Assembly: GCF_003403035.1 (NCBI RefSeq)
Contig: NZ_QURN01000004.1
Span: forward strand, 62,001-126,000
Source: Mesorhizobium denitrificans
GTDB lineage: Bacteria; Pseudomonadota; Alphaproteobacteria; Rhizobiales; Rhizobiaceae
Direction: 5' to 3'
Length of the DNA stretch: 64,000 bases
A program made the position numbers and the translations under genes. This document shows, piece by piece, positions 13,668 through 15,165 of this stretch. Each line of letters opens with the position of its first letter. Positions within the stretch are counted from its first letter, which is position 1. The notes beneath the pieces were generated by a model. The model ran no database searches and had not been told where the DNA came from. It saw only the letters and a program-made list of their open reading frames with translations.

Positions 13668-14426
13668 ATGAAAATGGTTGCGTTTCTTGAACCTGTAAAA
13701 GCAGCACTCGTCGTGCTTGCGGCGTGCATGATGCTTTCGGCCCCGGCGCTGGCAGGTACGGACAAGCCGGCAGGTGTCGTGGAACTCTTCACGAGTCAGG
13801 GCTGCAATTCCTGCCCACCCGCAGACAGCTTTTTCAACGAGCTTGTCCAGAAAGGCGATGTCATCGCGCTCGCCTACCACGTGGACTATTGGGATTATCT
13901 CGGCTGGAAGGACACGCTCGCCAAGCCCGAGCACACCGAGCGCCAATATTCATATATGCGCAGCTTCGGCGACAGGTCGATCTACACGCCGCAGCTCGTC
14001 GTCAATGGGCGCAAAGATTTCATGGGCGGTGACCGCAAATCTGTCGAAGAGGGCCTTAATTCGCTGAGCAACAGCGGCGAAGGCATGGAGGTGAACCTTA
14101 CCGTGTCGGAGACGAAAGACAGCATCATCATCAAAGTCGGTGCCACGACACAGCCGGCGGCTGAGGCAAATCTGATGCTGGTTTATTTCGAGCCTCCCAA
14201 AGTCATCGATATCGAAAAAGGCGAGAATGTCGGTCGCAAAGCCATTTATCTTAACGCGGTAACCGGTATCCGCGCGGCAGGCGTCTGGCACGGCAAGGCG
14301 GCGGAGTTCGAACTCCCCAAGAGCGAATTTGAAAGCAAGGGCGGCTGCGCGGCACTGCTGCAAGCCGAAACTAACGATGGAAAACTAGGCCCCATTCTGG
14401 GCGCAACGCTGGTTCGACACCCCTAG
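13668..14426 (+). CDS. DUF1223 secreted thioredoxin-fold protein
   Basis: A 252-residue exported protein with a signal peptide ending near ALA-G29 and the DUF1223 signature VELFTSQGCNSCPPAD, which puts a CxxC pair (Cys46, Cys49) at the start of a thioredoxin-like fold. AYHVDYWDYLGW and TPQLVVNG are also family motifs. The family is thought to act in the periplasm but has no settled function. It stands alone between acnA and a gap holding a probable antisense-strand small RNA. Two ATG codons six bases apart could serve as start. Confidence 0.88.
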   Translation: MKMVAFLEPVKAALVVLAACMMLSAPALAGTDKPAGVVELFTSQGCNSCPPADSFFNELVQKGDVIALAYHVDYWDYLGWKDTLAKPEHTERQYSYMRSFGDRSIYTPQLVVNGRKDFMGGDRKSVEEGLNSLSNSGEGMEVNLTVSETKDSIIIKVGATTQPAAEANLMLVYFEPPKVIDIEKGENVGRKAIYLNAVTGIRAAGVWHGKAAEFELPKSEFESKGGCAALLQAETNDGKLGPILGATLVRHP

Positions 14427-14434
14427 AGCGGCCA

Positions 14435-14474
14435 GCAAAAAACAAAAACCGGCGCAGCCTATGGGCTAGCCGGT
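14435..14474 (-). terminator. Second minus-strand terminator downstream of the small RNA
   Basis: On the minus strand ACCGGC and GCCGGT enclose an inner AGCC/GGCT pairing, followed by TTTTTGTTTTTTGC. No minus-strand protein gene ends here, so it most likely backs up the terminator of the small RNA to its right; it could also limit readthrough from DUF1223 weakly. Confidence 0.7.
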
Positions 14475-14475
14475 C

Positions 14476-14577
14476 AAAAAATCCCGAACTTTCCGGGAGT
14501 AGCCTGATTCGATCCGGTAAGGCTCGTGGGCGGGGGGCTTGGGGTTACGAGCAAAACCGGACCGAACCGTCTCAGGC
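14476..14577 (-). ncRNA. Candidate structured small RNA with its own terminator
   Basis: The minus strand can form a long imperfect hairpin between 14577 and 14502: GCCTGA/TCAGGC (6 bp), a 5-base bulge, TTCGGTCCGGT/ACCGGATCGAA (11 bp, one G-U), a symmetric 3+3 internal loop, GCTCGT/ACGAGC (6 bp), and a 19-base C-rich apical loop. It is followed by a terminator hairpin (TCCCG/CGGGA) and six T. The G-U pair is an A-C mismatch on the plus strand, which favours minus-strand transcription. The 5' end is not defined and may lie further right. I do not recognise the family. The C-rich loop could pair with Shine-Dalgarno sequences, which is inference. Confidence 0.6.
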
Positions 14578-14778
14578 AACAGCAACACCGTCGATTTTAT
14601 TTGGGGCATCAACTTGGATAAATTGCGGCAACAATGTGTTGAATGATCACCAATCATTACAAATTGTTTCAGGATGTGATCGCAAGCTCCGCGTGTGCGA
14701 GCCCGCATTTACCACTAACTCTTGCATTTCCTTAATGAAAAGGCGACCCTGCATTTACCGTTATCAAAGGGAAGCTGA

Positions 14779-15165
14779 ATGACGGATCGCGGAACCGGTT
14801 CAAAGGGCGACGACGAGTCGGCAATACTCATCCCTTTTCCGGAATCGAAGCCGCAGACCGTGCTGCGGCAGGTTTCATTTGAGCGTCGGGAGCTTGAAAC
14901 CATCCTGCGTTTATATGGACGTATGGTCGCCGCGAATGAGTGGCGCGACTATGCGATTGATCACACGACGGACCGCGCCATTTTCTCTGTTTTCCGGCGA
15001 GCGAGTGAAACGCCTTTGTTCCAGATCGTCAAAAACCCCGCGCTCGCGCGCAAGCAGGGCGCCTTTGCTGTCTTCACAGGCACGGGTCAGGTGCTCAAGC
15101 GCGGTCAGGAACTGGCGCGGGTGCTTGGCGTGTTCGACAAGAAGCTGCGCCTGATTGAAGGCTGA
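14779..15165 (+). CDS. DUF2794 family protein
   Basis: A 128-residue soluble protein with the DUF2794 pattern: VSFERRELETILRLYGRMVAA split over two helices, then EWRDYAIDH and FQIVKNPALARKQGAFAV. The family is widespread in alphaproteobacteria and uncharacterised. AAGGGAAG precedes the ATG. Three GCATTT(A/C)C elements lie 20-75 bases upstream. The DUF445 gene begins four bases after its stop, so the two are one transcription unit. Confidence 0.85.
   Translation: MTDRGTGSKGDDESAILIPFPESKPQTVLRQVSFERRELETILRLYGRMVAANEWRDYAIDHTTDRAIFSVFRRASETPLFQIVKNPALARKQGAFAVFTGTGQVLKRGQELARVLGVFDKKLRLIEG

Follow-up and report, generated by a model that had tools for sequence, protein, structure and literature searches.

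GspR (SmelC775), PmaR and BjrC174 are the described small RNAs that come closest to the element analyzed here. In Sinorhizobium meliloti, the gspR gene is located between SMc03844 and SMc03845, and the RNA, of 143-144 nt with three stem-loops (-66.30 kcal/mol), accumulates in stationary phase (PMC5928217). According to the same report, the first stem-loop (SL1) represses ctrA and the third one (SL3) represses cspA5 at the ribosome-binding site and is linked to growth arrest on overproduction. GspR is described there as identified only in Sinorhizobium, suggesting a genus-specific adaptation, and a 2011 survey counts it as one of eight families confined to Sinorhizobium/Ensifer (PMC3927594). 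PmaR is reported to be confined to Agrobacterium and one Rhizobium strain, and to be possibly recent; it is most abundant in stationary phase and in minimal medium, its effects on mRNA stability are both positive and negative, and the regulation of its targets requires the CCCA at nt 58-61 of its loop (PMC6234868). BjrC174 has been described in Bradyrhizobium/Rhodopseudomonas.

The unity of these three named RNAs has apparently not been recognized so far; among the open-licence papers searched, none names two of GspR/SmelC775, PmaR and BjrC174 together, apart from two papers that give both names of GspR. The stretch of 64,000 nucleotides of Mesorhizobium denitrificans DNA analyzed in this work (the window) contains a small RNA that the initial annotation had presented as new, which does not hold, as its family is already known as BjrC174 (RF02355), Atu_C10/PmaR (RF02497) and GspR, with a shared locus and a shared fold or architecture. 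We consider it highly probable that the window element is a trans-acting, minus-strand small RNA of about 107 nt with its own promoter and terminator, orthologous to BjrC174, to PmaR (Atu_C10) and to a 5'-extended GspR, with a function like that of PmaR and GspR. The orthology appears from locus, fold and loop in the case of BjrC174 and PmaR, and from locus and architecture in the case of GspR; the structure, strand, conservation, preferred locus, single copy and promoter box are computational results.

The hairpin and its surroundings in the window

The RNA lies, as first proposed, in a gap between two plus-strand genes, DUF1223 and DUF2794. The features of the region are the following:

13668-14426, plus strand: DUF1223 gene (SrlA-like), convergent neighbor (PF06764, E 8.6e-61)
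14440-14475, minus strand: second hairpin and T-rich run, possible back-up terminator (read directly from the sequence)
14476-14582, minus strand: small RNA gene, predicted transcript of about 107 nt (structure and covariation; start predicted at 14580-14583)
14476-14498, minus strand: intrinsic terminator, hairpin 14498-14482 followed by TTTTTT (terminator scan)
14506-14515, minus strand: conserved basal stem, 3' arm GGATCGAATC (alignment, letters checked)
14522-14527, minus strand: apical stem, 3' arm ACGAGC (fold and alignment)
14528-14546, minus strand: apical loop AACCCCAAGCCCCCCGCCC, 19 nt and C-rich, which holds the best-conserved letters of the family (fold and alignment)
14547-14552, minus strand: apical 6-bp stem, 5' arm GCTCGT, partner 14522-14527 (fold and alignment)
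14559-14568, minus strand: conserved 10-bp basal stem, 5' arm GGTTCGGTCC, partner 14506-14515 (alignment, letters checked)
14605-14629, minus strand: promoter box GCC (14629-14627), TCC (14618-14616), GCC (14607-14605), 11-bp spacing (register conserved in 50 of 55 loci)
14779-15165, plus strand: DUF2794 gene, divergent neighbor marking the locus (PF10984, E 3.8e-38)

Folding of the minus strand between 14590 and 14470 yielded a minimum free energy of -48.1 kcal/mol (z -3.06), with 1 of 200 dinucleotide shuffles folding as well or better. This structure reproduces the 23 bp (6+11+6), the symmetric internal loop (3x3) and the 19-base apical loop of the initial annotation, and adds a 5-nt bulge, absent from it, that separates the 6-bp and 11-bp stretches. 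The sole G-U pair lies in the 11-bp stretch and corresponds on the plus strand to a mismatched A-C, so that the wobble is legal on the minus strand only, as had been noticed. The plus-strand fold was less distinct (z -2.17, with 7 of 200 shuffles equally good). The lower 6-bp stretch (GCCUGA/UCAGGC) is outside the conserved core and was present, among 15 aligned rows, only in those of the window's genus (L001-L003). The proposed terminator with six T is present on the minus strand; a terminator-like hairpin by itself is no proof of a small RNA, because the scan found 2 sites in 601 bases and a mean of 1.1 in shuffles. The transcript start was placed from the first position of the covariance model R1 (14580) and from the distance between box and +1 in the PmaR-type loci and the GspR-type locus.

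The small RNA is single-copy in the window's genome, where the R1 search gave 68.3 bits for it and 17.3 bits for the next match, the first score not being independent since the window row is one of the R1 rows. No repeats were detected within 14250-14750, and a repeat element was discarded on the basis of both results. No reading frame is conserved across 15 relatives. The TTG of GTTGCC is the one start-like codon inside the RNA common to all of them; the frame that it opens closes after 11 codons in 4 of the 15, while in 9 of them no stop has appeared by 110 nt, and a coding function was rejected because this sole shared codon opens no conserved frame. An 80-aa ORF on the minus strand (14466-14708) overlaps the RNA region. 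The element is very probably a real small RNA, rightly placed and oriented from the beginning, and the claim of a minus-strand RNA that has a C-rich loop and ends at a terminator of its own is borne out by the fold, the strand signal and the covariation presented below.

The S. meliloti gene SMc03845 has been reported as srlA, with Atu2684 (PDB 2AXO) as homolog, and SrlA as dependent on CenK-CenR (PMC9561847). The DUF1223 protein of the window matches 2axo (Atu2684) with E 5e-60, on which grounds it is, by sequence, a homolog of SrlA; SMc03845 is likewise, by this homology, the DUF1223 gene, and we infer that SMc03844 is DUF2794. In a Brucella study of MucR, the DUF2794 gene BAB1_0087 is included in a table of MucR-affected genes, an effect that could concern the divergent RNA promoter.

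Covariation and distribution of the RNA

Three rows (L048, L061 and L062) were dropped before the alignments. Alignment A2 (MAFFT) includes 39 of the 44 prepared rows (38 distinct), leaving out L002, L005, L032, L033 and L054, and alignment A3 includes 37 rows, with L057 and L060 also left out. The 39-row alignment revealed two-sided changes in 8 of the 10 pairs of the basal stem, with 98.4% of the cells paired, and a covariation score of 0.545; shuffles scored 0.310 (sd 0.018) and slid registers no more than 0.313. Some of these rows had entered via a structure model. All 16 pairs covary in a 99-row alignment fitted to the model (score 0.671 versus 0.282), which leans towards the structure. 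Covariation at the same locus in relatives, a check proposed in the initial annotation, is therefore strong, and the comparative evidence for the element goes far beyond chance. The basal cells read on the minus strand contain 34 G-U and 0 A-C combinations in the 39-row alignment, and the RNA was assigned to this strand for that reason; the 99-row model-fitted alignment contains 133 G-U and 14 A-C cells. The least variable letters are those of the loop, AGCCCCCCAGCCCCC in most rows of the order and AAGCCCCCCGCCC in the window's clade, a conservation that derives partly from selection, since the rows of A1-A3 were picked by a C-rich pattern.

A protein-first analysis has also been carried out, in which the loci were chosen by DUF2794 and not by the RNA. 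DUF2794 (PF10984) was found in 91 of 101 genomes of the order, from which 92 loci were taken; among 14 control genomes, it was found in Caulobacter only. Model R1 (37 sequences) matched 55 of the 92 loci at E 0.01, 39 of them from genomes without a row in R1 and 16 from genomes with one, and in 54 of these 55 the RNA is divergent, 144-476 bp upstream of DUF2794. The RNA match of the other locus (L104, genome G112) is on the DUF2794 strand, possibly by a local inversion. No R1 match at E 0.01 was obtained in 37 loci, two of which match with model R2.

Model R2 matched at E 0.01 in 160 of 247 genomes of the family, corresponding to 73 of 109 genera; 87 genomes gave no match at this threshold, with strict search filters that miss weak matches. 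One genome of the phylum sample (G060) has two R2 matches (48.3 and 43 bits) and may carry a duplicate of the RNA. The RNA has been lost or has diverged in many lineages, judging from the 37 of 92 loci and the 87 of 247 genomes of the family that gave no match. In the class sample, R1 matched 13 of 337 genomes, one being the genome of the window and the other 12 belonging to five families outside the order; 6 of these 12 matches adjoin DUF2794 and 6 are without it. In the phylum sample, the 25 matches (R2) among 299 genomes all belong to the window's own genome, family, order or class. The exact 24-base pattern occurs, among the matches listed, in Mesorhizobium, Brucella/Ochrobactrum, Aminobacter, Nitratireductor, Aquamicrobium and Bauldia. 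A plain DNA search (E 0.1) matched 24 of 61 genomes, own included, and DUF2794 adjoins all 15 of its loci L001-L015 and none of the 15 weaker ones (L016-L030).

The RNA was found without DUF2794 in the stretch examined at L044, L046, L048, L049, L051 and L058 within the order, and at L191 and L193-L197 outside it. Three of the order genomes concerned (G130, G085 and G048) have the RNA and carry DUF2794 elsewhere without an R1 match; therefore, the RNA can leave the locus.

Correspondence with BjrC174, PmaR and GspR

No gathering-score match to any of 4227 Rfam families was found in the 64-kb window. The Rfam search suggested by the initial annotation thus gave no match at the gathering level and was productive at permissive thresholds: the BjrC174 model (RF02355) matched the window RNA on the same strand and over its full length with 29.7 of the 45 bits of its gathering score (E 0.0011 in 431 bases, 0.0027 genome-wide), and the Atu_C10 model (RF02497) matched it on the same strand with 22.1 of 60 bits (E 0.042 in 431 bases, 0.096 genome-wide), scores below those of formal members of either family. 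A match to the Rfam anti-hemB family (E 0.89) was taken as chance.

At E 0.1, the BjrC174 model matched 71 of the 150 order genomes, with nine above the cut-off and a single match in 70 of the 71; among the 14 control genomes, it matched Caulobacter vibrioides only, below the cut-off. DUF2794 adjoins 24 of 30 BjrC174 loci, the other 6 being without DUF2794 within 3 kb. The loci L031-L033 (170-176 bits) have the gene order acnA, DUF1223, RNA, divergent DUF2794, and the window RNA has the same order and orientation.

The Atu_C10 model matched 3 of 150 genomes of the order, weakly, and 33 of 247 of the family, four of them above the cut-off. All four loci above the cut-off sit between DUF1223 and a divergent DUF2794. 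Among the 29 Atu_C10 loci newly examined, DUF2794 is present in 24, and four weak ones are without DUF2794 or DUF1223. R1, which was built without these Atu_C10 loci, recovered all four loci of the PmaR type at 28-31 bits (E from 2e-4 to 1e-3), whereas the four weak hits that lack the synteny gave no match at E 1. Atu_C10 (RF02497) is Agrobacterium PmaR, since the PmaR report gives the name as 'formerly C10' (PMC6234868) and the nucleotides that it names (G18, G19, the loop-closing G47, CCCA 58-61, G62 and G81) fit the four loci (L064-L067) when counted from Rfam position 1. The locus, spoon hairpin and C-rich loop of Atu_C10 are all found in the window RNA.

At a syntenic locus (L090), a predicted transcript of 144 nt, with its start 46-49 nt downstream of the box's first GCC, forms three stem-loops with -66.3 kcal/mol, and the third of them is the spoon hairpin; this agreement in energy is that of one locus among nine, with seven start offsets tried in each. 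The best energies of L084, L085 and L086, of similar architecture, were -64.6, -64.6 and -58.7 kcal/mol. As L090 reproduces the 144 nt, the three stem-loops and the energy, GspR appears to be this hairpin extended by two 5' stem-loops, and we infer that GspR SL3 corresponds to the spoon hairpin of L084-L086 and L090. In five loci of the window's family (L073, L076, L078, L081 and L083) the GCC box is located 176-244 bases ahead of the loop, which predicts 5' extensions longer than that of GspR.

The window RNA has the features of the orthologous group defined with R1 and R2 (covarying 10-bp stem, apical stem, C-rich loop, GCC box and divergent DUF2794), and its core identity to PmaR-, GspR- and BjrC174-type rows is 55-59%.

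Promoter box, targets and relation to known systems

The promoter box of the family is GCC-N8-GCC-N8-GCC, with the first GCC 49 bases ahead of the model start, and the window version is GCC-N8-TCC-N8-GCC. In register (-51 to -49), at least 7 of the 9 letters are present in 50 of the 55 protein-first loci, at least 8 in 39 and all 9 in 22, and 200 shuffles gave a mean of 0.56 and a maximum of 3 loci with at least 7 letters; this comparison, restricted to these 55 loci, is descriptive, as the register was chosen after inspection. The PmaR-type loci retain 8 of the 9 letters. The box occurs in most loci inspected and often has TCACA ahead of it. The GspR start is described as having no known promoter signatures upstream (PMC5928217), and, of the starts assayed for which no RpoD/RpoN motif had been mapped, that of BjrC174 is reported to have the highest promoter activity (PMC4842269); at these starts, the shared box offers a direct route to the regulator. 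OmpR-type regulators have the same 11-bp spacing, which suggests that a response regulator of this type would bind the box and drive the promoter. CenR was considered as the activator and found no support by motif: its Rhodobacter sphaeroides site, TGA-N8-TGA (PMC9275681), shares the 11-bp spacing but not the GCC letters. The S. meliloti CenR site is described as an inverted repeat, and in the Brucella CenR/EssR paper, as far as consulted, no motif was found.

The RNA would be transcribed on the minus strand from its own promoter upstream of DUF2794 and ended by the intrinsic terminator ahead of DUF1223. By analogy with the published work on PmaR and GspR, it would accumulate in stationary phase, and its exposed C-rich loop would pair in trans with G-rich segments in a number of mRNAs, whose stability and translation would thereby increase or decrease. 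Pairing of the window RNA with such segments is most likely, judging from the homology of the loop. Motifs of anti-Shine-Dalgarno loops are of the CCUCC type. The resemblance to such loops pointed out in the initial annotation is a fair analogy, in that PmaR and GspR SL3 act on mRNA via loop or stem-loop, and fails in the letters, since the loop CCCCAAGCCCCCC is not of the CCUCC type; a crude target comparison did not support it either. With crude start codons and 103 window ORFs as background, the murB leader of this genome ranked 35 of 103 in pairing with the loop, which is unremarkable, and five cold-shock leaders (of six matches) ranked 13-90 of 103, none being outstanding.

This lack of an outstanding pairing with the two reported target types in this genome would fit an RNA that serves mainly as a sponge, with a C-rich loop that binds a protein or the ribosome, mRNA pairing being secondary. 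The near-invariance of the loop core across the order, though PmaR (murB, ampC and others) and GspR (ctrA and cspA5) have different confirmed targets, points in the same direction. However, when its loop is mutated, PmaR no longer regulates its targets or binds murB and ampC RNA in vitro (PMC6234868), and GspR no longer represses cspA5 once either SL3 or the cspA5 site is mutated (PMC5928217), which makes a sponge unlikely as the main function.

The same published work, in which PmaR and GspR act on distant mRNAs, argues against a cis-acting antisense RNA or divergent-promoter product regulating only DUF2794 or DUF1223. Such an RNA would account for the preferred place next to DUF2794, and the S. 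meliloti antisense to GspR (SmelC776) is reported to come probably from the SMc03845 mRNA (PMC5928217); but the apical loop is the most conserved part, 6 of 30 loci within the order and 6 of 12 beyond it have the RNA but no DUF2794 next to it, and we regard a purely local role as very improbable. Long inverted repeats fold on either strand (plus-strand z -2.17), and both flanking genes are on the plus strand, as would suit a terminator of DUF1223 or a part of the DUF2794 leader. A plus-strand element is nevertheless hardly credible in view of the 34 G-U and 0 A-C cells of the minus strand, the T-run present on this strand only, and the fixed distance from box to hairpin in minus-strand order.

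The trans-acting small RNA is thus the preferred reading. On its wider history we lean only slightly towards one RNA older than the order and present in at least six alphaproteobacterial families inside and outside it, a general stationary-phase or envelope regulator of the order that would have kept hairpin, loop, GCC box and, mostly, locus while its targets and 5' modules were rewired, the box being the site of an activator, plausibly an envelope-stress regulator of the OmpR family. PmaR and GspR have been published as genus-restricted, perhaps recent; if they are one gene with BjrC174, their target lists constitute a natural experiment in retargeting, and what is learned in one species would guide the search in roughly two thirds of the sampled genomes of the family (160 of 247).

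GsrN of Caulobacter and EcpR1 (SmelC291) are also described as stress-related, trans-acting alphaproteobacterial RNAs with C- or GC-rich loops. Both were rejected as relatives by their published loci: most GsrN homologs are near genes of general stress response (GSR) sigma factors, a different locus, and EcpR1/SmrC10, a first guess from the name C10, is located at divK-pleD/rpmG. GspR shares with the window RNA the corresponding gene gap, the DUF1223 neighbor and SL3 as spoon hairpin. It differs in the extra 5' SL1 and SL2, as the window RNA, in the gap that corresponds to SMc03844/SMc03845, lacks SL1-SL2 of the 144-nt transcript and has its core directly after the predicted +1; since SL1 is absent, control of ctrA by this stem-loop is not expected. 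BjrC174 shows 55% core identity at one high-scoring locus (L112), and is alike in locus, strand, hairpin and full-length model match. PmaR has a different 5' leader, a core identity of 57-59% (two loci) and the loop core CCCCCAGCCCCC, compared with CCCCAAGCCCCCC in the window RNA, and both RNAs have in common the locus, the retained promoter box and a spoon hairpin with corresponding loops of 19 nt.
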